A stretch of DNA of 64,000 bases from Demequina pelophila (GTDB lineage Bacteria > Actinomycetota > Actinomycetes > Actinomycetales > Demequinaceae). The notes beneath the pieces are model-generated. The model was given only the letters and a program-made list of their open reading frames with translations. It made no database searches and had not been told where the DNA came from. Location of the stretch: NCBI RefSeq assembly GCF_000971175.1, contig NZ_BBLY01000007.1, positions 62,001-126,000 of the forward strand. Direction: 5' to 3'. The translations under genes were made by a program, and so were the position numbers. Below, one piece after another: positions 1 through 39,074 of the stretch. Within the stretch, counting starts at the first letter, position 1. Each line of letters begins with the position of its first letter.

Positions 1-1512
1 CTGATGATCGACGAGGGCTACGACCTGATCGTCCGCGGCGACCAGCACGCGACCCTGCAGCGGGCGCGCGCGAACTCGCTCGACCCGGCGTCCATCTGGG
101 TGTACCGCTTCTACGACCTGCACTCGCGCACCTTCGGCGGCGCCAACCCGGACGTCTTCGACCTGCGCGCGGCCGCGCTGGGCCTGTACGACTTCATCGA
201 GCTCATCCGCGACCGGGTGCACGGGCGCCCGCCGGTCTACCTGGTCGCCCACTCGATGGGCGGGCTCGTGTGCCGGTCGATGCTGCAGACGGTGTGCGGC
301 ACGCCCCGCGAGGACGGCGCCGTGCGCGACGCGGGGCCGGACACGGTGGCCAAGCTGCTCACCATGGGCACCCCGCACGGCGGCATCGAGACCCGTTTCG
401 CGCTGGCGGACCTGCTCAACGAGCACGTGGGCATCTTCGGCTCGGAGATGTTCGCGCGCGCCAACATGCACGAGTTCCTCGCGCCCGCCGCCCAGGACAC
501 CGGCGACTACGACCCGCAGGTGATGCCCGAGGAGGCGCTGCCGTCCGACCGCGCGTTCTGCGTGGTGGGCACCAACCCGTCCGACTACGGGCTCGCGCGC
601 AAGGCCATCGGGGTGAAGTCGGACGGCCTGGTGCGCATCGAGAACGCGTACGTCAAGGGTGCGCCGCGCGCGTTCGTCCACCGCGCGCACTCGGGCTCGT
701 ACGGCCTGGTCAACTCGGAGGAGGCCTACCAGAACCTGCGCCGCTTCCTGTTCGCGAAGTGGCGGGTGCGCGTGCACCTGGTGGGCGTGGACTTCACGCA
801 CGAGGACTCGCTGGCGGGGCTGTCGCTCGAGCAGCTGCGGCAGCGGCTGGCGAGGCTCGAGGGCGGCGCCGAGTTCGACCGTCCGGACCTCGACTCCTTC
901 TGGCAGGCCGACGTCCAGGTCACCGTCCGCGGCCTGCCCGTGATCCTCCACGAGCAGTCGGTCGACAAACACTGCCCCATCCAGCTCACCGAGGAGCAGT
1001 TGCGCCGGCGCATCGCGGCGCTCACCGCGGGTGCCGACCTCACGGACACGGACACCGCCGACACGCCCGTGCCCCTCGCGAGCGTCTACCTGCTCGGGAA
1101 GGCAAGGTTCAATCGGGACCGGAGCCGAGCATCGTCCACCACCCATCCCGGGCCGGTGCCGCGCGACCCGCGGGCGGCCCCCGACTCCGGCCTGAGCCGC
1201 TACGCCCTGCGCATGCGCGTGTTCCGCCTCACCGAGACGGGCGGCTTCTTGGGGATGGGCGGCCACCTCGAGCAGGTGGCGGACTGGGAGGACTCGCTCA
1301 TCGTCGACGTGGGTCCCGCAGGGGACGATGGACTGGTCGCCTGGGCGCGATGGGCCTCCGAGATCCCGGGTCCCAATGCGTCCTACGACCCGAGCGGCAC
1401 TCCCCCGCTCGACTTCCCCGGCTGGGTCGCCGAGGTGCCGCTGCCGCGGGCCGCGCGCGACGGGGTCCTGGGCGACCGAGCGCGGCTTCGCCTCGAGATC
1501 ACGGAGGCGTGA
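1..1512 (+). CDS. Alpha/beta-hydrolase, lipase-like (5' partial)
   Basis: Probable esterase or lipase of the alpha/beta-hydrolase fold. The reading frame is open to the first base of the window, so the true start is probably upstream; the first ATG is at base 4. The nucleophile elbow AHSMGGLVC lies near residue 85. A plausible acid is the Asp in VKSDGLVR (about residue 208) and the His is in FVHRAHSG, giving a complete Ser-Asp-His set. The C-terminal half (about residue 250 onward) shows no family I recognise. No signal peptide can be judged because the N-terminus is missing. It ends 27 bases before the convergent SDR gene. The substrate is unknown; a PGAP1/lipase-like esterase is the best guess. 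Confidence 0.75.
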   Translation: MMIDEGYDLIVRGDQHATLQRARANSLDPASIWVYRFYDLHSRTFGGANPDVFDLRAAALGLYDFIELIRDRVHGRPPVYLVAHSMGGLVCRSMLQTVCGTPREDGAVRDAGPDTVAKLLTMGTPHGGIETRFALADLLNEHVGIFGSEMFARANMHEFLAPAAQDTGDYDPQVMPEEALPSDRAFCVVGTNPSDYGLARKAIGVKSDGLVRIENAYVKGAPRAFVHRAHSGSYGLVNSEEAYQNLRRFLFAKWRVRVHLVGVDFTHEDSLAGLSLEQLRQRLARLEGGAEFDRPDLDSFWQADVQVTVRGLPVILHEQSVDKHCPIQLTEEQLRRRIAALTAGADLTDTDTADTPVPLASVYLLGKARFNRDRSRASSTTHPGPVPRDPRAAPDSGLSRYALRMRVFRLTETGGFLGMGGHLEQVADWEDSLIVDVGPAGDDGLVAWARWASEIPGPNASYDPSGTPPLDFPGWVAEVPLPRAARDGVLGDRARLRLEITEA

Positions 1513-29823: not shown

Positions 29824-30118
29824 GGAAACCTCCTCGCTCGCGGCACCCAGCCGCGAGGCGAACACCCGGCACCCGGCCGGGGTGGAGCGAAAGCCTCGGC
29901 ACCTGGCCGGGACGTGGAGGGCACCTGGCCCAAGCCCATACGCATCACCATACGCATGATCATGCGCATTGTCGAGGAATCTCGATGAGCAGGCACTGCC
30001 ACGACAACGCGACATCCGCAGGCCGCCGGCGATCGCCACAAAGATGAGTAAACGATGACCTGGTCATGTTTCACGTCCAATGATGGTCGTGGGAACTCAC
30101 GAGTTACCAGGACTTTCA
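29824..30118. other. Low-GC region upstream of TA pair
   Basis: About 295 bp without a convincing gene. Bases 30061-30120 are about 50% G+C by hand count and 29941-30000 about 55%, far below the surroundings. Imperfect GGCACCTGGCCGGG units repeat at about 29869-29930. This fits imported DNA. Confidence 0.5.
29936..29970 (-). promoter_or_regulatory. Toxin-antitoxin operator with CGCATGATCATGCG palindrome
   Basis: CGCATGATCATGCG (29953-29966) is a perfect 14-bp palindrome preceded by two direct CATACGCAT units (29937-29945 and 29949-29957). It lies about 130 bp upstream of the antitoxin start in an AT-richer stretch, as expected of a Phd/YefM-type operator. Confidence 0.55.
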
Positions 30119-30133
30119 CCGTCGGGGTGACAG
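30119..30133 (+). repeat. Candidate attachment site, right copy (tRNA-Pro 3' end)
   Basis: CCGTCGGGGTGACAG overlaps the last 12 bases of the tRNA-Pro gene, including the discriminator base. It is the exact direct repeat of 28450-28464, 1669 bp away. Confidence 0.6.
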
Positions 30134-30195
30134 GATTTGAACCTGCGACCCTCTGCTCCCAAAGCAGATGCGCTACCAAGCTGCGCTACACCCCG
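30122..30195 (-). tRNA. tRNA-Pro (anticodon TGG)
   Basis: A 74-nt cloverleaf on the minus strand: acceptor CGGGGTG/CACCCCG with discriminator A, D-stem GCGC/GCGC, anticodon stem TCTGC/GCAGA with loop TTTGGGA (anticodon TGG), T-stem GCAGG/CCTGT with loop TTCAAAT. CCA is not encoded. Its 3' end is the right copy of the direct repeat. Confidence 0.95.
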
Positions 30196-30272
30196 TGGCC
30201 CCCGAACAGGGGGCGCTGTTCCCCGCATCGGCGGGGCTCGGCTACTCTAGTACGCGCCGCGCAGGCGGCGAT

Positions 30273-30346
30273 GCGGGTGTAGCTCAATGGTAGAGCCTCA
30301 GTCTTCCAAACTGATTACGCGGGTTCGATTCCCGTCACCCGCTCCA
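30273..30346 (+). tRNA. tRNA-Gly (anticodon TCC)
   Basis: Acceptor GCGGGTG/CACCCGC, D-stem GCTC/GAGC, anticodon stem TCAGT/ACTGA with loop CTTCCAA (anticodon TCC), T-stem GCGGG/CCCGT with loop TTCGATT. CCA is encoded at 30344-30346. It is divergent from tRNA-Pro. Confidence 0.95.
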
Positions 30347-30350
30347 TGAC

Positions 30351-30378
30351 GAAGGCCCCCTCCGCGGAGGGGGCCTTC
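30351..30378 (+). terminator. Terminator after tRNA-Gly
   Basis: GAAGGCCCCCTCC and GGAGGGGGCCTTC form a perfect 12-13 bp stem around GC, 5 nt after the tRNA end. Confidence 0.8.
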
Positions 30379-30517
30379 GGCGTCTCGGCTCTGCGGCGCG
30401 GTCAGACCCGTCGGCCCGCCGGCCCCCATTGCTGTGGTGGTAGATGCGCGCACGCTTTCGCACAGAGTCGTGCGCGGATCTACCACCAGCACCCCAACGC
30501 GAGGGCGCCCGCCCCCG

Positions 30518-31465
30518 TCAGGCGGAGGCCGCGCTCAGCGCCTCGAGCTCCTCCGCAGACAGCACCAGCGTCATCGAGGCGACCAGCGGCGCCAGCTGGT
30601 CGAGCGTGCGCGCCGAGGCGATGGGGGCGACCACCGTCGGCTGATCCCGCAGCCACGCCAGCGCGACCGCCGCCACGTGGGCGTCGTGCGCGGCGGCGAT
30701 GCGGTCGAGCTCCGCGAGCACGCGTCGGCCGCGCGCATCGAGGTACGCGCCCGCAGCCGCGGCGCGCCGGCTGTCGACCACCGCATCGTCCCGGTACTTG
30801 CCCGTGAGGAAGCCCTTCGCGAGCGACCAGTACGGCAGCACGCCCAGGCCGTGGCGCTCCGCGGCGGCGCGCAGCTCGCCCTCGAAGCCGCGCTCGACCA
30901 GGTTGTAGTGAGGCTGGAGGGCGACGGGCCGGTGGAGGCCGTCGCGATCGGCGATCGCGCACCACTCGTCGATGCGGGCGGCCGTGTAGTTGGAGATGCC
31001 GATCTCCCGCACCAGGCCGTCGTCGACCAGCGCGGAGAACGCCGCGGCCGTCTCCTCGAGCGGCGTGTCGGGGTGGTCGAAATGCGCGTAGTAGAGGTCG
31101 ATCCGATCCGTCCGGAGGCGCGCAAGGCTGGCCTCGGCCGCGGCGCGCACGGTGGCCGCGCCGAGCCCCGTGAACTCGGGGTGCTCGCTCACCTTCGTCG
31201 CGACGAGGACGTCGTCACGGCGACCGCGCGCGGCGAGCCACTCCCCGATCACGGTCTCGGACTCGCCGCCCGAGTTGCCGGGCGCCCACGCCGAGTAGAC
31301 GTCGGCCGTGTCGACCAGGCGCCCGCCGCCGGCGACGAACGCGTCGAGGATGGCGAAGGAGTCGTCGCGGTCGGCGGTCCAGCCGAACACGTTCCCACCA
31401 AGCGCCAGGGGCGCGTCGGTCAGGTCGAGGGTTCCGAGTGCGGAGGCGATCTGCTCAGTGGTCAT
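30518..31465 (-). CDS. Aldo/keto reductase family oxidoreductase
   Basis: A 315-aa NADPH-dependent (beta/alpha)8-barrel enzyme. The catalytic tetrad is visible: Asp and Tyr in DTADVYSAW, Lys in LVATKVSEH, His in YYAHFDHPD. ISNYTAARIDEW and VLPYWSLAKGFLTGKYR are family blocks. LGRWxxA-type C-terminal cofactor residues appear in VAPIASARTLDQL. Substrate unknown. A GGGACGATGC copy (31493) lies 28 bp upstream of the ATG, and another is inside the gene at 30783 (loop YRDDAVV). Confidence 0.88.
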   Translation of the reverse strand: MTTEQIASALGTLDLTDAPLALGGNVFGWTADRDDSFAILDAFVAGGGRLVDTADVYSAWAPGNSGGESETVIGEWLAARGRRDDVLVATKVSEHPEFTGLGAATVRAAAEASLARLRTDRIDLYYAHFDHPDTPLEETAAAFSALVDDGLVREIGISNYTAARIDEWCAIADRDGLHRPVALQPHYNLVERGFEGELRAAAERHGLGVLPYWSLAKGFLTGKYRDDAVVDSRRAAAAGAYLDARGRRVLAELDRIAAAHDAHVAAVALAWLRDQPTVVAPIASARTLDQLAPLVASMTLVLSAEELEALSAASA

Positions 31466-31619
31466 GCGGGCTCCTGTCGGGTAGCGGGCCCCGGGACGAT
31501 GCGATGGTCCGGGAAGCCTGGGTCGTTCAGTGTCGTCGAGGGAGTGGGGTGCCGGCGCGGAAGGTCGGCGCCGATGCGGCGGCCGGGTCGAGTGCCGGAG
31601 GCCCGGGTGCGGGCGCTCG

Positions 31620-32036
31620 CTAGAAGAGCCCGATCACCACGCCCGCAAGCGCGAGGCCCGCAGTGTCGTGCGCCGCATCGATGAGCGTGATGCCGGGGTG
31701 GCGCAGCGCGAAGCCGTTGTGGAGCGCATGGGCCCCGCCGCGGAACACCAGGCCGATGAGCGCGCCCAGCACGAGGCCGCCGGCCCAGTCGTCGATGCCG
31801 AGTCCGTTCATGAGCACGGCCAGGAGGATCACGCCCAGGGCGTTCGCGACAATGGTGCCGCCGAAGGCGACGCCCATGCTCGCGCCCTCCATGTCCTCGC
31901 GCGTCATCCCGTTGAGGCGCTGCCACAGCGGAAACAGACCCACCGGCGAGTACCACCAGAAGCCGAGCGCGAAGGCCGCGAGGAACGCCACGAGCACGGC
32001 GATCCAGTTGACGTCCGCGAGCGAGAGCCAGTCCAT
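31620..32036 (-). CDS. DUF1761 membrane protein
   Basis: A 138-aa protein with four transmembrane helices. NWIAVLVAFLAAFALGFWWYSP at the N-terminus and a GGAHALHNGFALRHPGITLIDAAHD block before the last helix are typical. Function unknown. TAGTCT is 7 nt upstream of the start, indicating a leaderless transcript. A copy of the 55-nt repeat lies just upstream. Confidence 0.8.
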   Translation of the reverse strand: MDWLSLADVNWIAVLVAFLAAFALGFWWYSPVGLFPLWQRLNGMTREDMEGASMGVAFGGTIVANALGVILLAVLMNGLGIDDWAGGLVLGALIGLVFRGGAHALHNGFALRHPGITLIDAAHDTAGLALAGVVIGLF

Positions 32037-32067
32037 GAGGCCGAGACTACGAGGCGAAACGACAACC

Positions 32068-32122
32068 CTCTACCCCTCAGGCGCAGCAACCTCGCGAAAG
32101 CGACCACCACCTACCCATTCCG
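32068..32122 (+). repeat. 55-nt dispersed repeat, copy 3
   Basis: CTACCCCTCAGGCGCAGC followed by AACCTCGCGAAAGCGACC and ACCACCTACCCATTCCG. Two or three differences from copies 1 and 2. It is intergenic between two minus-strand genes and no endonuclease-like gene is attached to it. Confidence 0.8.
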
Positions 32123-32203
32123 GATGGGGCGGGGGGCGGGGGCCGGGCGGGGCCGAGCTGGGCAGCGGGGTCGGGGGCCGGGCGGGGCCGGGCGGCGGGG
32201 GGC

Positions 32204-32662
32204 TCAGCCCTCGACGGCCGCGGCGATCTCCTCGAGGTCCGTGTCGAGCGCCTTGCGGGTCGCCTTCATCCCCGCCTTCCCGAACAGCAGCCATCCCACG
32301 CGCTGCGCCGGACCGGGGTGGGGCGTCTCGGCGGTGAAGCTCACCCGCAGGAGGGTGCCCTCGCCGTCGGGGATGAGCGTGAAGATGGTCTCGTACTCGG
32401 TGCCGCGGTTCTCGGCCACCACCACGGTGCGGTGCGGCGCGTCGACCTCGGCGACCTCCATGACCTCGTCGGCCTCGCGGCCGAACATGCGGCGCGTCTC
32501 CCGCCAGCGCACGCCCGGCTCGTAGCCGTCGCCCTCGAGCCGCTGGATCGCGACGATCGCGCTCATCACGTCGGCCGCGCCGTCGAGGTCCGTGACCACC
32601 TTCCAGACCGCCTCGGGCGACGCCTCGATGCGCCGCTCGGTCTCGATCCGATGCCCTGACAT
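32204..32662 (-). CDS. SRPBCC family protein (polyketide cyclase-like)
   Basis: A 152-aa START/Bet v1-like protein: RRIEASPEAVWKVVTDLDGAAD, then GVRWRETRRMFGREADEVMEV, TEYETIFTLIPDGEGTLLRVSF and a C-terminal helix. The fold binds hydrophobic ligands; the ligand is unknown. GAGGGGGAGCG precedes the ATG. It is in the same direction as a second, distinct SRPBCC-like gene upstream. Confidence 0.75.
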   Translation of the reverse strand: MSGHRIETERRIEASPEAVWKVVTDLDGAADVMSAIVAIQRLEGDGYEPGVRWRETRRMFGREADEVMEVAEVDAPHRTVVVAENRGTEYETIFTLIPDGEGTLLRVSFTAETPHPGPAQRVGWLLFGKAGMKATRKALDTDLEEIAAAVEG

Positions 32663-32718
32663 CGCTCCCCCTCGGTCCGTTGCCTCGGCCCCAGGCTAGC
32701 CCCGGCGCGCGCCCGGCC

Positions 32719-33195
32719 TCAGACCCGGACGGCGAAGTGCCGCGCCAGGTCCCCGATGTCGGCCTTGAGCCGCACGGTCCCGCCCAGCGAGAAGAACGTG
32801 GCGATCGCGCTGCGCATCGCACGCTCCGCGAGCGTCGGCTGCGGCTTGTACACGTGGAAGACGCGCCGCACGTGCGTGCCCTCGGCCGTCTCCTCGAGGA
32901 AGGTGGTCACGGTGAACTCGCCGTCGGGCCCCACCCGCTCCTGGACCAGCCGGGTATAGGGCTCCGCCTCGAGGGTGGTGAGGCGGATGACGTTGGGTTC
33001 GGCGCCCGCGTCGCGCTCGCTGAACTGCATGACGTGCCCCAGCTCCCCCGGCTGGCCCTCCTCGGTCACCGCCTGGATCACCATGGAGAACACCTCGACC
33101 CGCAGGTCCGGTTCTGTCAGGCACCGCCATACGTCCTTCGCGGTCGCGGGGATGGTCCCCTCCCGCTCGACGGACATATCCAGCGCCCCTGCCAT
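32719..33195 (-). CDS. SRPBCC-like protein
   Basis: A 158-aa protein with the same general helix-grip layout: VEREGTIPATAKDVWRCLTEPDL, ELGHVMQFSERDAGAEPNVIRL, FTVTTFLEETAEGTHVRRVF and a long C-terminal helix. Sequence similarity to the downstream gene is only structural by eye. GGGGAGGAATC precedes the ATG. An internal ATG (MSVEREG) 18 nt later is an alternative start. The two genes are 56 bp apart and probably co-transcribed. Confidence 0.65.
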   Translation of the reverse strand: MAGALDMSVEREGTIPATAKDVWRCLTEPDLRVEVFSMVIQAVTEEGQPGELGHVMQFSERDAGAEPNVIRLTTLEAEPYTRLVQERVGPDGEFTVTTFLEETAEGTHVRRVFHVYKPQPTLAERAMRSAIATFFSLGGTVRLKADIGDLARHFAVRV

Positions 33196-33671
33196 GATTC
33201 CTCCCCGCGGCGGAGCGACGAACGCGCCCCATCAGCCCACCGTAGTGCGCACGCGACCAAAGTTGCAGGTTGGCGCCGCCGGGCCGGCGGACACGCCGCG
33301 GTCGAGGGACGATGCACGGTCCGGCCCGGGGTCCAGGGTCGGCCAGGGATCCACGCAGCCGCCGCGAGGGGTGGGCGGGCGGGCCCGCCGCCTCGCGTCC
33401 GCGCGAGCGGGCCCGCCCACCCCCACGGGTGCCGCCCCCCGCGGGCACCCCTGGCACCTCCTACGCTACGAAGGCAGCCACGGTGCGGGTATCCCCATTT
33501 GTGGGGGAAGGGCATGCACCGGATCGGACACCGGCGCCCGCACGTCACGAATCGGGCGGCGGTACCGCGTGAGGTGCGCCACACGCACCCGTTCCCCTGG
33601 TCGACCAGGGGGTTGCCGCACGACTCGCGGCGCCGCTAGGCTCGCGTTATCCGCACCGGAGGGCACCCACG
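33196..33671. other. 476-bp intergenic region with stable hairpins
   Basis: No gene was seen. It holds a GGGACGATGC copy at 33306, a large inverted repeat (about 33368-33387 with 33407-33424, GGGCCCGC core), a second hairpin GGGTGCC/GGCACCC at 33427-33450, and a small CCCC/GGGG hairpin near 33491-33509. The promoter of the leader-cysK operon (TAGGCT near 33636) lies at its right end. Confidence 0.5.
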
Positions 33672-33764
33672 ATGAGCATCGAGAGCCGCGCATTCGCCGC
33701 CGCCTCTGCCGTCGTCGCACGCCCCGCCGCGCGCTCGTGCGCCTGCGGCTGCTGCTGTCTGTAG
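33672..33764 (+). CDS. Polycysteine leader peptide upstream of cysK
   Basis: A 30-aa frame (MSIESRAFAAASAVVARPAA, then RSCACGCCCL) with GGAGGGCACCCACG before its ATG. Five of the last eight residues are Cys, directly before the stop. This is the design of cysteine-responsive attenuator uORFs described in mycobacteria: when cysteinyl-tRNA is scarce, ribosomes stall and downstream expression rises. It ends 127 bp before cysK. A small hairpin CCGATCC-GA-GGATCGG at about 33780-33795 follows. The regulatory role is inferred from position and content. Confidence 0.75.
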   Translation: MSIESRAFAAASAVVARPAARSCACGCCCL

Positions 33765-33890
33765 AGCGCCGGCGCGCTCCCCGATCCGAGGATCGGAAGG
33801 TCTCACGCCGCCGCTCTGCCCGGCATTATTCCTGATAGATCAGCGTTGCACCCCCAGCATTTCCCCACCACCAAAGGAGAAGGACCGCTC

Positions 33891-34826
<936 letters not shown>

Positions 34827-34887
34827 TCCAGCACGGCGGCGCGTTGCCGCCCCCGGCACCACATCCCACCTGGAAGGGCTTCCTGCC

Positions 34888-35535
34888 ATGGCATCCGACA
34901 TCTCAGCGCTCGGCCGAGCGCTCGAGGACATCCGCACGGCGAGGCGGCGGGATCCCGCCGCGCCCGCGTGGTGGGTGATCGCGGGCTCCTACCAGGGCGT
35001 CCACGCCGTCTGGTATCACCGGGTGGCGCACTGGCTGTGGCGCCGGGGGCTGCGCTCGTACGCGCGGCTGGTCTCGCAGTACGCGCGGCGCGCGACGGGC
35101 ATCGAGATCCACCCCGGCGCGCAGCTGGGCCGGCGCGTGTTCATCGACCACGGCATGGGCGTGGTGATCGGCGAGACCGCCGTGGTGGGCGACGACGTGC
35201 TGATGTTCAACGGCATCAACCTGGGCGGCACCACGATGAGCCCGGGCAAGCGCCACCCCACGATCGGCGACCGCGTCGTGATCGGCGCGGGGGCCAAGGT
35301 GCTCGGCCCCCTTCACATCGGATGCGACGCGCGCATCGGCGCCAATGCCGTGGTCGTCAAGGACGTCCCGGACGGTGCGACCGCCGTCGGCATCCCCGCG
35401 GTGATCCGCAACCACCCGGGGCCCACGGAGGCCTCGACCGCCGCATCGGCCGTCGACTCGGGCGACTCGCACCGGCACCCCAACCCGGACGCCCCGCCGG
35501 AGCCGGTGCACGAGCCGGCCATGTACTACATCTGA
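34888..35535 (+). CDS. cysE: Serine O-acetyltransferase
   Basis: A 215-aa enzyme of the left-handed beta-helix hexapeptide family; makes O-acetylserine for CysK. Features: [33 protein letters not shown] (active-site His region), [28 protein letters not shown]. The tail is Pro/Asp/His-rich and ends MYYI; a C-terminal Ile is what anchors CysE in the CysK active site in known cysteine synthase complexes. GGAAGGGCTTCCTGCC precedes the ATG. Confidence 0.95.
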
Positions 35536-35543
35536 CGCGCCCC

Positions 35544-35549
35544 TAGGGT
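35544..35549 (+). promoter_or_regulatory. -10 box TAGGGT for aldo/keto reductase
   Basis: TAGGGT, GGGGCC, ATG: 6-nt spacing typical of a leaderless transcript. It lies 9 nt after the cysE stop, so the reductase gene is probably independent of cysKE. Confidence 0.5.
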
Positions 35550-35555
35550 GGGGCC

Positions 35556-36488
35556 ATGCGAACCTTCACCCTGCCGCACACCGACATCGTCGTCCCGGAC
35601 GTGGTCCTGGGCCTCATGCGCATCGTCGAGAAGTCCGACGAGGAGGTGCGCGCGCTCGTGAGCGCCGCCCTCGACGCGGGCATCGACTTCATGGACCACG
35701 CCGACATCTACGGCCCGCCGTACCACGGCTGCGAGCGCCGCTTCGCGGAGGCCCTCCGGCTCACCCCGTCCGAACGCGACCGCCTCACCCTCCAGACCAA
35801 GTGCGGCATCCGCCAGCCCGGGCCGTACTTCGACTTCTCGTACGAGCACATCGTGTCCTCCGTCGAGGGCTCGCTCGAGGCGCTCGGCACGGACCGCATC
35901 GACATCCTGCTCCTCCACCGTCCCGACGCGCTGGTCGAGCCCGAGGAGGTCGCGCGCGCCTTCGACGACCTCGAGGCCGCCGGCAAGGTGCGCCACTTCG
36001 GCGTCTCGAACCACACCCCGGGCCAGATGGATCTGCTGCGCAAGCACGTGCGCCAGCCGCTGGTCGCCAACCAGATCCAGCTCTCGATCACCCACGCCCC
36101 CACCATCGCGGGTCCGATGGCCATGAACATGGCGGCGCTCGACCAGTCGATCGCGCGCGACACCGGCGTCATCGACTACTGCCGCCTCCACGACATCACC
36201 CTTCAGGCCTGGTCGCCGTTCCAGGCCGGATTCTTCACCGGCCCGTTCCTGGGCTCGCCCGAGTACCCCGAGCTCAACGCCGTGATCGACCGGCTGGCCG
36301 CGCAGTATGACGTGCCCGCCGAGGCGATCGCGGTCGCGTGGCTCACCCGCCACCCCGCGCGCATGCAGGTGGTGCTGGGGACCACCACGCCGGCGCGCGT
36401 CGCCGCCGCGGCCCAGGGCTCGGACATCACCCTCACCCGCGCGGAGTGGTACGCGCTGTTCCGCGCCGCGGGCTACCTGGTGCCCTGA
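35556..36488 (+). CDS. Aldo/keto reductase (YdhF-like)
   Basis: A 310-aa barrel enzyme. Asp and Tyr are in FMDHADIYGPP, Lys in LTLQTKCGIR and His in ILLLHRPDAL. HFGVSNHTPGQMDLL, LQAWSPFQAGFF and VVLGTTTPARVAAA match the YdhF group of NADPH-dependent oxidoreductases. Substrate unknown. A leaderless promoter separates it from cysE. A perfect bidirectional terminator follows. Confidence 0.88.
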   Translation: MRTFTLPHTDIVVPDVVLGLMRIVEKSDEEVRALVSAALDAGIDFMDHADIYGPPYHGCERRFAEALRLTPSERDRLTLQTKCGIRQPGPYFDFSYEHIVSSVEGSLEALGTDRIDILLLHRPDALVEPEEVARAFDDLEAAGKVRHFGVSNHTPGQMDLLRKHVRQPLVANQIQLSITHAPTIAGPMAMNMAALDQSIARDTGVIDYCRLHDITLQAWSPFQAGFFTGPFLGSPEYPELNAVIDRLAAQYDVPAEAIAVAWLTRHPARMQVVLGTTTPARVAAAAQGSDITLTRAEWYALFRAAGYLVP

Positions 36489-36526
36489 CCGCCGGGGCCC
36501 CTGAGCCCGCGGCCCTCACACAGACG

Positions 36527-36558
36527 ACGAGGCCCCGGTCGATCGACCGGGGCCTCGT
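36527..36558. terminator. Bidirectional terminator, perfect 32-nt palindrome
   Basis: ACGAGGCCCCGGTC-GATC-GACCGGGGCCTCGT lies between the convergent aldo/keto reductase and dps genes. Confidence 0.85.
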
Positions 36559-36588
36559 GCCGTCTCGGGGGACGATGCGGTGGGCGGG

Positions 36589-37089
36589 CTATCCGGCGAA
36601 CGAGCGCAGCATCCAGGCGGCGTCCTCGTGCGCGGCGAGGCGCGCGTTGAACAGGTCCGCCGTGGCGCCGTCGCCGGCCTCCTCCGCGACCTCGACGAGC
36701 GGGCGCACCAGGCGCGCGACGGTCTCGTGGTCGCGGCGCAGGTTCTCGACCATGGTCATCGCGTCCGCGGTGCGGTCGTTGTCCTTGATGGACGTGTGCT
36801 CGGTGAACTCGGCGTACGAGCCCGGGGCGGGAGCCCCGAGGGCGCGCATGCGCTCGGCGAGGACGTCGGCGGCCTTCCACAGCTCCGTGTACTGCTCCTC
36901 GAACATGAGGTGGAGCGAGCGGAAGTGCGGGCCGGTCACGTTCCAGTGATAGCCGTGCGTCTTGAGATACAGGGTGAAGGTGTCGGACAGCACCTGCGCG
37001 AGGCCGGCGTTGATGGCCGTGAGATCCTCGGACTTGATGCCGATCCTGGGCTGGGTCGCGGTGGTCCTGGCGGGCGTGGCGGGCTTCAT
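36589..37089 (-). CDS. dps: Dps-family DNA-binding ferritin
   Basis: A 166-aa four-helix protein that stores iron and protects DNA in stress. The ferroxidase site is visible: KTHGYHWNVTGPHFRSLH, then FEEQYTELW. The N-terminus (MKPATPARTTATQPR) is a flexible basic tail that could bind DNA. IKDNDRTADAMTMVENLRRDHE is a typical C-terminal helix start. CGGAGGAGGAGAC precedes the ATG at 37089. A GGGACGATGC copy lies 10 bp past the stop. Confidence 0.92.
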   Translation of the reverse strand: MKPATPARTTATQPRIGIKSEDLTAINAGLAQVLSDTFTLYLKTHGYHWNVTGPHFRSLHLMFEEQYTELWKAADVLAERMRALGAPAPGSYAEFTEHTSIKDNDRTADAMTMVENLRRDHETVARLVRPLVEVAEEAGDGATADLFNARLAAHEDAAWMLRSFAG

Positions 37090-37229
37090 GTCTCCTCCTC
37101 CGTCGGGTTCGCAGGCCGCGGAAAGCGCCCCGCGGCTCCACTGGGGTGCAACCGGCCTGCCGCGGCCGACATTCCCGGGGCCAACGTCCGTACCGGAATC
37201 CGCTCCCACGCTGTTATGTTGCGAGCATC

Positions 37230-37730
37230 ATGGACATCTTCTCGCTCGACCCGCAGCCCGCCGCGGAGGCCTGCCCCGCCCCTGCCGTGCAGGACGCACC
37301 CGGGGACGATGCGATGGTCGAGATCCTCGCCCAGACCCGCCGGGTGGCGATCGTGGGAGCCTCCCCGAACCCGGCCCGCACGAGCTACCAGGTGGCGGTG
37401 TGGCTCATGGAGCACACCCCGTACGAGCTGTTCCTGGTGAACCCCGCCGCCGAGGGCGAGGAGATCCGTGGACACGGCTTCTTCCCCACCCTCGCCGAGG
37501 TGCCGGTCAAGGTCGACCAGGTCGTGGTGTTCCGCCGCGCCGAGTACACCCCGACCATCGCGCAGCACGCGGCCGACGCGGGCGCGGGCGGCGTGTGGCT
37601 CCAGCTGGGCATCGCGAACGCGCACGCGATGCGGATCGCGGCGGAGCACGACATGACCGCCGTGCAGAACCGCTGCATCAAGATCGAGTACCGCCGCCTG
37701 GCCGACCGCATCGAGGCAGCGCGCGACTGA
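37230..37730 (+). CDS. CoA-binding domain protein (YccU-like)
   Basis: A 166-aa Rossmann-fold protein of the succinyl-CoA synthetase-like CoA-binding family: VAIVGASPNPARTSYQVAVWL, LFLVNPAAEGEEIRGHGFFPTLAEVP, VVVFRRAEYTP, GGVWLQLGIANAHAMRIAAEHDM and CIKIEYRRL. Exact role unknown. The ATG at 37230 gives a 28-residue extension containing a GGGACGATGC copy (codons for GDDA); an ATG at 37314 would match the usual family start and put the motif in the leader. Start uncertain. Confidence 0.8.
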   Translation: MDIFSLDPQPAAEACPAPAVQDAPGDDAMVEILAQTRRVAIVGASPNPARTSYQVAVWLMEHTPYELFLVNPAAEGEEIRGHGFFPTLAEVPVKVDQVVVFRRAEYTPTIAQHAADAGAGGVWLQLGIANAHAMRIAAEHDMTAVQNRCIKIEYRRLADRIEAARD

Positions 37731-37808
37731 CGGCTCTCCCCCGAGGCGACACGCGCATCGGCCCCGTCCAATCCGCGCCATACCGTTTCAAGGTGCCACG
37801 ATGAGGGC

Positions 37809-39074
37809 ATGAGCCTCGCCGCCGGGTATCGACTCGTGTCCATCGACCGCGACCGTGGCGCGGAGATGCTCGAGGTCGACTCGTGGGCCTTCACCGGCGA
37901 CTTCGCGCCCGGCGAGGCCGAGGACTGGCTCGCGGCGATCCCGTTCGACCGGGCCCGCGCGATGGAGATCGCGGACCCCGGGCGCGGCCCGCTGGGCGAG
38001 CTCGCCGCGGTCAACTCCTCCTATACGTTCCGCATGGCCGTGCCGGGCGGCGAGCACGTGCCCGTCGCGGGCCTGACGTTCGTGGGCGTGCACACCGGGC
38101 ACCGAAGGCGCGGCCTGCTGCGCGCGATGATGGCCGACCATCTGGCCGACGCCCGCCGCCGCGGGGAGGTCGCCTCGGCGCTCTACGCCGCCGAGTCCGA
38201 GATCTACCAGCGGTTCGGCTACGGCCTCGCCGCGCAGCAGCTGACCCTGCGCGTGCCGCGCCGGGCGGATCTGCGGGAGGTGGCAGGCGCGGACGCGCTG
38301 ACCGTGCGCCTCGAACGGCTGAGCCTCGAGCGCCACGGCCGGGTCATGCGCACCGTCCAGGCGCGGCTCGCCCGCCCGGGCACCATGACGCTCGAGTCGG
38401 ACTACGCGCTGCAGGCACGTTTCTGCGATCCGGTCTCCGACCACCGCGACTCGGAGCGGCTGCGGATCGCGATCGTCGAGGACGGGGACGAGCCCGTCGC
38501 GTATGCCATCCTGCGCCGCAAGGCGGACTTCGGCGACGACTCGATGCCGTCGGGCAAGGTGACCGTGCAGCAGCACGCCGCGCTCACCCCGGCCGCCACG
38601 CATCGGCTCTGGTCCGTGCTCGCGGACATCGACCTGATGGCCACCGTCCACGCGGCGCCCTTCGCGGTGGACGATGCGCTGGTCCACATGCTCGTCGACC
38701 TCCGGTCCGCGGCCCCGCGCCTGCGCGACAACCTGTGGCTGCGCCTCGTCGACGTGCCCGCCGCGCTCACGGCACGCTCGTACGTCACCCCCGTCGACGT
38801 GGTCGTGCGCGTCGAGGACCCCCTGTTCCCGGACAACGCCGGCCCGTGGCGCATCACCACGCGCGACGGCGAGGGGCACGTGGAGGACGCGCACGGCGCC
38901 GAGCCACACGTCGTGATCGGGATCCAGGAGCTGTCCGCGGCCTACCTGGGCGGCGCGAGCGTCGAGGCGCTCGCCTCCGCCGGGCTCGTCGAGGAGCGCC
39001 GCCCGGGCGCGGTGCGCGCGCTGGCCGCGGCGCTGGGGTGGGTCCAGGCGCCCGTGTGCAACCTGTTCTTCTGA
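37809..39074 (+). CDS. Eis-like GNAT family N-acetyltransferase
   Basis: A 421-aa protein with the Eis three-part layout: N-terminal GNAT with acetyl-CoA loop VGVHTGHRRRGLLRAMM (about residues 96-112), a second atypical GNAT region, and a C-terminal sterol-carrier-like domain (AHGAEPHVVIGIQELSAAYLGG). It ends CNLFF; in Eis enzymes the terminal carboxylate is catalytic. It may acetylate amines such as aminoglycosides or lysines; the substrate is not visible. Confidence 0.85.
   Translation: MSLAAGYRLVSIDRDRGAEMLEVDSWAFTGDFAPGEAEDWLAAIPFDRARAMEIADPGRGPLGELAAVNSSYTFRMAVPGGEHVPVAGLTFVGVHTGHRRRGLLRAMMADHLADARRRGEVASALYAAESEIYQRFGYGLAAQQLTLRVPRRADLREVAGADALTVRLERLSLERHGRVMRTVQARLARPGTMTLESDYALQARFCDPVSDHRDSERLRIAIVEDGDEPVAYAILRRKADFGDDSMPSGKVTVQQHAALTPAATHRLWSVLADIDLMATVHAAPFAVDDALVHMLVDLRSAAPRLRDNLWLRLVDVPAALTARSYVTPVDVVVRVEDPLFPDNAGPWRITTRDGEGHVEDAHGAEPHVVIGIQELSAAYLGGASVEALASAGLVEERRPGAVRALAAALGWVQAPVCNLFF

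Follow-up and report, generated by a model that had tools for sequence, protein, structure and literature searches.

A short cysteine-ending leader frame upstream of cysK and cysE was found in the window (the whole stretch of 64,000 nucleotides that was analysed), joined through the G of its own stop codon to an RNA hairpin, P1, that is conserved among relatives. Taken together, the sequence comparisons and predicted folds are best explained by a ribosome-gated attenuator that reads cysteinyl-tRNA supply, with a Rho-type effect favoured as its output (probability about 0.7). Cysteine-responsive leader control in the general sense is very probable.

The leader frame and the cysK-cysE locus

The locus comprises the following elements:

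33658-33663, + strand: leader Shine-Dalgarno (SD) site GGAGGG, read in the sequence ahead of the leader ATG
33672-33764, + strand: leader ORF of 30 codons, encoding MSIESRAFAAASAVVARPAARSCACGCCCL, with stop TAG
33891-34826, + strand: cysK, cysteine synthase A
34888-35535, + strand: cysE, serine O-acetyltransferase

An earlier sequence-only reading of this DNA had described a 30-aa frame with a ribosome-binding site and the end CACGCCCL ahead of cysK, a description confirmed by the sequence itself, by frame statistics and by conservation in 44/44 related upstream regions (see below). Its gap of 127 bp is corrected here to 126 nt between the leader stop and the cysK start at 33891. The frame carries 5 Cys within its last 8 codons and was the only one with at least 4 among the 525 stop-anchored frames (209 + 316) on the two strands of the window, and no frame with at least 5 was found in 40 first-order Markov strand-windows. 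The biosynthetic cysKE operon, named as the target in the same reading, was likewise upheld, since both genes exceeded their NCBIfam cut-offs (cysK, TIGR01139, 447.8 bits against 350.95; cysE, TIGR01172, 231.9 bits against 210.65). The absence of Cys codons from cysK, together with a single one in cysE, would suit enzymes made during cysteine shortage. Demequina provided the best named relatives, the cysK of D. rhizosphaerae being 96% identical to that of the window.

A fixed UGU codon two positions ahead of the stop

Codon comparison and genome-wide patterns defined a core at the end of the leader:

33756-33764, + strand: core UGU-CUG-UAG, made up of the last Cys codon, a final sense codon beginning with C, and the stop

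The form UGU-CNN-UAG was present in all 44 distinct cysK upstream regions obtained from 51 loci of the window's genus and its sister genus; G013, G041 and G045, from the same group and with no or a partial cysK match, lay outside this comparison. Forty-two of the 44 leaders had been picked by Cys content and an MS start, with no nucleotide motif demanded, and the other two (L117 and L123) do not begin with MS in this way and share the core. Across the 42, codon -2 was always TGT, the stop was always TAG and the last sense codon always started with C (CTG 30, CTC 8, CGC 2, CAG 2). Codons -3 to -15 of these same leaders contained 188 TGC against 17 TGT, and the coding-like ORFs of the window 67 TGC against 5 TGT.

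Among 110 leaders of a wider set, the number of Cys codons per leader ranged from 1 to 9, approximate counts given that the start codon was chosen by rule. Three of these leaders (L059, L132 and L178) contain a single Cys codon, a fourth such count (L238) being a chance hit, and the leader sequence outside its end differs between genera. As judged from these comparisons, the constant feature is one UGU two codons ahead of the stop, at a fixed distance from P1, and runs of Cys codons are optional.

A covarying hairpin that begins at the stop codon

Hairpin P1, an inverted repeat, is built from the following parts:

33764-33774, + strand: P1 5' arm GAGCGCCGGCG, which opens on the stop codon's third base
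33781-33796, + strand: small hairpin within the P1 loop, CCGATCC-GA-GGATCGG, varying in sequence among relatives
33806-33816, + strand: P1 3' arm CGCCGCCGCUC, pairing with 33764-33774

In the window, 10 of 11 positions of P1 are paired, with one C-C mismatch. An uninterrupted helix of at least 7 Watson-Crick pairs from the third base of the stop was found in 102 of 110 leaders, and at 7 of the 558 remaining stop codons of these regions, the partner RNA being sought 18-100 nt downstream of the stop and the best of about 80 positions being taken. Double-changed cells in the 110 sequences numbered 71, against a shuffled mean of 17.5 and a maximum of 33, in shuffles that leave relatedness in place and with invariant first pairs that reflect the arm search. 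This covariation set includes three leaders with an interrupted stem (L001, L117 and L213) that are missing from the 107-leader helix set; the window's genome is represented twice, by L001 and L082.

The MAFFT alignment of 63 distinct rows gave a similar picture: 91.9% of P1 cells pair, against 28-41% in slid versions, and 26 double-changed cells were counted against 6.3 after shuffling. Two of the five pair measures on this alignment stayed within the shuffles, namely the number of pairs showing a double change (reached in 66 of 500 shuffles) and the number of pair types (65 of 500). RNAalifold, run on the alignment trimmed around the arms, recovered P1's first 7 pairs as its sole helix. Four leaders with unclear arms (L021, L126, L035 and L009) were left out of alignment A1 and of the ribosome folding described below, and L059 was left out of A1; alignment A2 holds 40 of the 44 regions from the genus and sister genus. 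The window leader as a whole is not unusually stable relative to shuffles (z -1.04 and -1.33). On the evidence of the aligned leaders, P1 is kept by compensatory changes, and its first pair uses the G of the stop codon.

The structure constitutes an RNA element without a match in Rfam 15: tRNAs alone were matched in the window at the gathering score, 7 related loci likewise gave nothing but tRNAs, and positions 33560-33950 gave no match at E values up to 5. An extension of P1 by UGUC-GGCA pairing, suspected from the window fold, was rejected because the Cellulomonas loci listed lack GGCA at the corresponding position. The UGUC segment showed mean unpaired probabilities of 0.22-0.45, so that it is often paired in prediction, and base pairing might account for the choice of UGU, although no fixed partner was found for it.

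Promoter-like pattern and leader start

A promoter-like pattern precedes the leader:

33613-33618, + strand: -35-like element TTGCCG of the putative leader promoter, part of a clade-wide pattern TTGnnn-16..19-TAnnnT
33637-33642, + strand: -10-like element TAGGCT, ending 29 nt ahead of the leader ATG, in the spacing TTGCCG-18-TAGGCT

The pattern occurred at most 130 nt upstream in 42/42 leaders of the Demequina clade, including that of the window, compared with a mean of 0.2/42 after mononucleotide shuffling. The distance from the -10-like element to the ATG was 29-30 nt in 28 of the 42, with relatives at 23-33 nt and one at 60 nt. A stricter sigma-70 consensus scan of 33000-36500 yielded no promoter. 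Loosely defined SD-like sites, counted with no control set, were present in 106 of 111 leaders, and 110 of the 111 had an open frame starting within 60 codons. Given the promoter-like spacing and the SD site, the leader start is probably SD-led rather than leaderless, with a predicted 5' UTR of roughly 20 nt.

Directly ahead of the -35-like element, at 33594-33611, lies an 18-bp perfect palindrome, CCCCTGGTCGACCAGGGG, which might serve as an operator or mark where the upstream region ends. An operator role found no support by eye in the 41 other leader upstream regions, where the palindrome was not seen.

Spread among relatives and target specificity

Within 214 distinct cysK upstream regions, TGTCNNTAG was located within 450 nt of the gene in 111, one of them (L238) by chance. 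As this motif served as the selection criterion for the 111-leader set and for the P1 tests, its invariance there is by construction. Twenty-eight of 80 named cysK loci carry the core, from Demequina and a nearby MAG, Cellulomonas, Actinotalea, Pengzhenrongella, Promicromonospora, Isoptericola, Oerskovia, Myceligenerans, Antribacter, Georgenia and Gordonia. It was absent from the cysK loci examined in Arthrobacter, Agromyces, Cryobacterium, Terrabacter and Propionibacteriaceae. Conservation of the leader in relatives, which the earlier reading had named as a check, therefore extends beyond the genus and sister genus to further genera. In Gordonia the leader closes with DHCR and contains one Cys; in the presumed Mycobacteriaceae family, 1 of 30 cysK loci has the core, in a leader nearly identical to that of Gordonia. 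Downstream of cysK, cysE was found in 26/26 named core loci of at least 5 kb, and a cysE match was also found in 47/49 named loci that lack the core.

The unit was sought in whole genomes with the pattern TGTCNNTAGAGCG-N19..49-CGCTC, which found matches in 36 of the 44 genus genomes and in 43 of the 121 from a relative family; the misses are partly expected, since known arm variants fall outside the pattern. Places ending at most 400 nt upstream of cysK on the same strand made up 36/36 in the genus, one overlapping duplicate being omitted, and 43/44 in the relative family. In the genome sequences of these two groups, the pattern of the unit is thus found almost only ahead of cysK. A covariance model, R1, applied to 394 genomes of the class, gave matches at E 0.01 or better in 7; among the matches listed, with 11 candidates scored per genome, the convincing ones were those in the window's own genome and in G054, the latter upstream of cysK, a count that does not measure absence elsewhere. 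A class-wide pattern was found in 15 of the 394 genomes, and its reversed control also scored in many. A second place of TGTCNNTAGRGCG in the window's own genome has, by reading, no adjoining cysteine gene.

Variant ends were also noted. Oerskovia flava has UGC-CGC-UAG in place of the core, and Cellulosimicrobium-type leaders (L014, L030, L031 and L227) end in UGU-CGC-UGA with arms of 5-6 pairs at the stop; with its changed stop codon, this group lends itself to a natural test of the hairpin model. In L187, a region of the presumed mycobacterial family that lacks the core, a 14-nt stem, CCGAATGTCACATC / GGTGTGACATTCGG, lies roughly 150-210 nt upstream of cysK and is a possible operator.

Proposed mechanism and alternatives

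Two further elements between the leader and cysK enter the argument:

33765-33890, + strand: C-rich spacer from the leader stop to the cysK start, C-G skew 0.21
33822-33848, + strand: region of a second hairpin, P2, in Demequina relatives, followed by GCGTTG (33843-33848); recognised by covariation in the relatives, P2 being weak in the window

Expression of cysKE would be higher at low cysteine, a direction expected from the biosynthetic role of the genes and from known amino-acid leaders. When charged tRNA-Cys is scarce, ribosomes would halt at the Cys codons of the leader, the wobble codon UGU being the last of these; a ribosome at this last UGU or at the stop would keep P1 open and cover the RNA beside the stop. 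With plentiful cysteine, the ribosome would finish at UAG and depart, P1 would close, and the unprotected C-rich spacer would be exposed to an early stop of transcription, most likely through Rho, leaving little cysKE mRNA. In this scheme P1 could act as a pause hairpin, in Rho positioning or as a processing site.

Folding of 65 leaders, with the ribosome modelled as a 28-nt mask, gave predicted P1 probabilities of 0.91 without a ribosome, 0.86 with a ribosome stalled six codons upstream, 0.04 once the last UGU occupied the A site and 0.00 for a ribosome at the stop. The two low values are in part built into the model, since the mask hides some (UGU state) or all 7 (stop state) of the scored pairs. 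Stalled and terminating ribosomes both melt P1, so that P1 alone cannot separate the two states, and its closure at the early stall fits badly with a simple opening of P1 by stalling in leaders rich in early Cys codons.

The Rho-type effect is favoured, as a presumption, because no intrinsic terminator, no alternative partner of P1 and no link to the cysK SD were found. A simple consensus scan of 33000-36500 detected no intrinsic terminator on the + strand, its sole hit lying on the minus strand at 33897-33882. Complementarity of the P1 3' arm to downstream RNA showed no excess over mononucleotide shuffles (mean z +0.22 in 43 Demequina-clade leaders and +0.20 in 65 others), with z below -1 in 3 of the 43 and 11 of the 65. 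In predicted ensembles about a quarter of the freed 3' arm finds a partner in the next 45 nt, the commonest distance being 27-35 nt. Lacking both a complementarity excess and a + strand terminator, the off-step is one that we infer. A rho gene is present (645.6 bits against a cut-off of 509.45), and the C-G skew at -110 to -10 averaged 0.26 in regions with the leader (n = 100) and 0.08 in those without (n = 112), a difference confounded with clade. Taken alone, the step of Rho-type early termination at plentiful cysteine is tentative, with somewhat less than an even chance of being correct.

The predictions support neither hiding of the SD site nor a terminator switch of the classical kind. 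In translation attenuation of the mycobacterial type, the leader RNA would hide the cysK SD and a stalled ribosome would free it, a mechanism described for the Cys leaders of M. smegmatis (cited in PMC13236596 and PMC9031893) and compatible with a cysK SD that is about half paired in predicted ensembles. Predicted SD accessibility, however, stayed flat across the ribosome states (0.52, 0.53, 0.52 and 0.53; 65 sequences), pairing of the P1 3' arm with the SD or coding sequence reached merely 0.03 with the ribosome on the stop (105 sequences), and no conserved anti-SD was seen by eye in the 40-sequence alignment, all of which makes this explanation unlikely.

A classical transcription attenuator, in which P1 or P2 would compete with an intrinsic terminator, was considered in view of P2 and the sequence that follows it. 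In Demequina relatives 77.1% of P2 cells are paired and P2 covaries, with 27 double-changed cells against 8.8 after shuffling; GCGTT follows some 5-7 nt later in many alignment rows, and freed 3' arms lean weakly to this place. Nevertheless, the GUU stretch is short, the scan and complementarity results above count against a terminator and an antiterminator arm, and no P2/GCGTT unit is evident among the other genera listed, although the leader and P1 persist there; this alternative is quite improbable. A third pairing, P3, between the P1 3' arm and the Demequina GCGTTG, seemed appealing by eye and was also rejected: variants of the motif (CCGUUG, GUGUUG, CUGUUG) are not accompanied by corresponding substitutions in the arm, and duplex testing revealed no surplus of pairing, the weak leaning of the freed arms notwithstanding.

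The peptide itself might act, either as a nascent chain sensing metal or redox state or in trans, as reported for peTrpL (PMC7298713), and the presence of up to 9 Cys per peptide would suit such a role. This is very unlikely in the face of the three single-Cys leaders (a count subject to the start-codon rule), the variation between genera of all but the end of the peptide, and the lack of any Pfam or NCBIfam match for 8 leader peptides at E values up to 10. Spurious frames are common in GC-rich DNA (90 ORFs of at least 20 aa overlap 30000-38000), yet the idea of a chance ORF is refuted by conservation, with the core in 44/44 regions, the promoter-like pattern at a similar distance, and covariation of codons and pairs.

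The ribosome-gated attenuator thus remains the preferred reading, and with it the earlier proposal of a cysteine-responsive attenuator, for which a conserved and probably translated Cys-codon leader speaks; the label "polycysteine" does not hold as a constant feature. A stricter version is possible and rather doubtful: a one-codon attenuator in which the single invariant UGU, 8 nt ahead of the stop-codon hairpin, would let the position of one ribosome decide directly whether that hairpin forms and would work without terminator, antiterminator or hidden ribosome-binding site, the extra Cys codons of Demequina merely sharpening the response, and which would serve cysKE alone in a large Micrococcales branch and Gordonia. 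If the hairpin does work without terminator or antiterminator, the unit would be an unusually compact attenuator, and its architecture is defined well enough for tests by single-codon changes.

Relation to known leader systems

Cysteine leaders are already known in Actinobacteria. In 2005, leaders with Cys runs were predicted before cys operons of Mycobacterium and Propionibacterium acnes and before cbs of Bifidobacterium longum (PMC1262725), and the present leader is therefore not the first case beyond mycobacteria. These leaders share with the present one short ORFs, Cys runs near the stop, association with cysteine genes, an actinobacterial host and the absence of a terminator, with Rho proposed as one possibility; they differ in their genes, cysK being unnamed in the section concerned. 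If the P1 hairpin works without terminator or antiterminator, the question raised in 2005 of how terminator-less actinobacterial cysteine leaders act would become directly testable.

The polycysteine leaderless sORFs of M. smegmatis (Canestrari et al., 2020, cited in PMC13236596, PMC9031893 and PMC9094748) were tested in mycobacteria and likewise combine Cys codons in an upstream ORF with cysteine-responsive control downstream. Their leaderless start contrasts with the predicted 5' UTR of the Demequina leader and its SD site, and the passages on mycobacterial sORFs in PMC13236596 make no mention of cysK. Accordingly, the suggestion that the mycobacterial mechanism applies here unchanged was not sustained: the attenuators described there act on translation from leaderless starts, and the promoter spacing and SD site point to a different start in the present case, with no predicted link to the cysK SD.

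Attenuators of the trp/ilv type in actinobacteria, such as that of ilvB1 in M. tuberculosis (PMC13236596), also use the position of a ribosome on regulatory codons to gate an RNA hairpin. They differ from the cysKE leader in that neither a U-tract terminator nor a competing antiterminator was found in the latter. The Rho-linked leader tnaC responds to free tryptophan by way of its nascent peptide. Similarly, a ribosome at the end of the cysKE leader would shield the RNA beside the stop codon from Rho; unlike tnaC, this leader bears no sign of a required peptide sequence beyond the Cys two codons ahead of the stop. The tna operon is also named as a comparison in PMC1262725.

Among the entries listed from the literature searched, which lay mostly outside subscription journals, none described a cysK leader of this design, and this holds for both the cysKE target and the stop-anchored hairpin architecture. 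The present data suggest that control by cysteine leaders extends to the final stages of cysteine biosynthesis (cysK and cysE) in a large actinobacterial group. Separately, a leader before metNIQ of Streptomyces lividans (PMC8079986, Table 4), interpreted there as a methionine leader, reads ...GARCMCRRMCAF with three Cys near its end and could also sense cysteine.

Neighbouring features

Two adjacent SRPBCC-type genes (Pfam Polyketide_cyc2) lie on the minus strand ahead of the leader, at 32204-32662 and 32719-33195; the first resembles NCBIfam TA_Rv0910_toxin, far below the cut-off (32.4 against 100 bits). Farther upstream, about 3.3-3.6 kb ahead of the leader, tRNA-Pro (30121-30195, - strand) and tRNA-Gly (30273-30346, + strand) form a divergent pair; a divergent tRNA pair was also found before cysK in L074 and L126, suggesting a partly conserved gene order.
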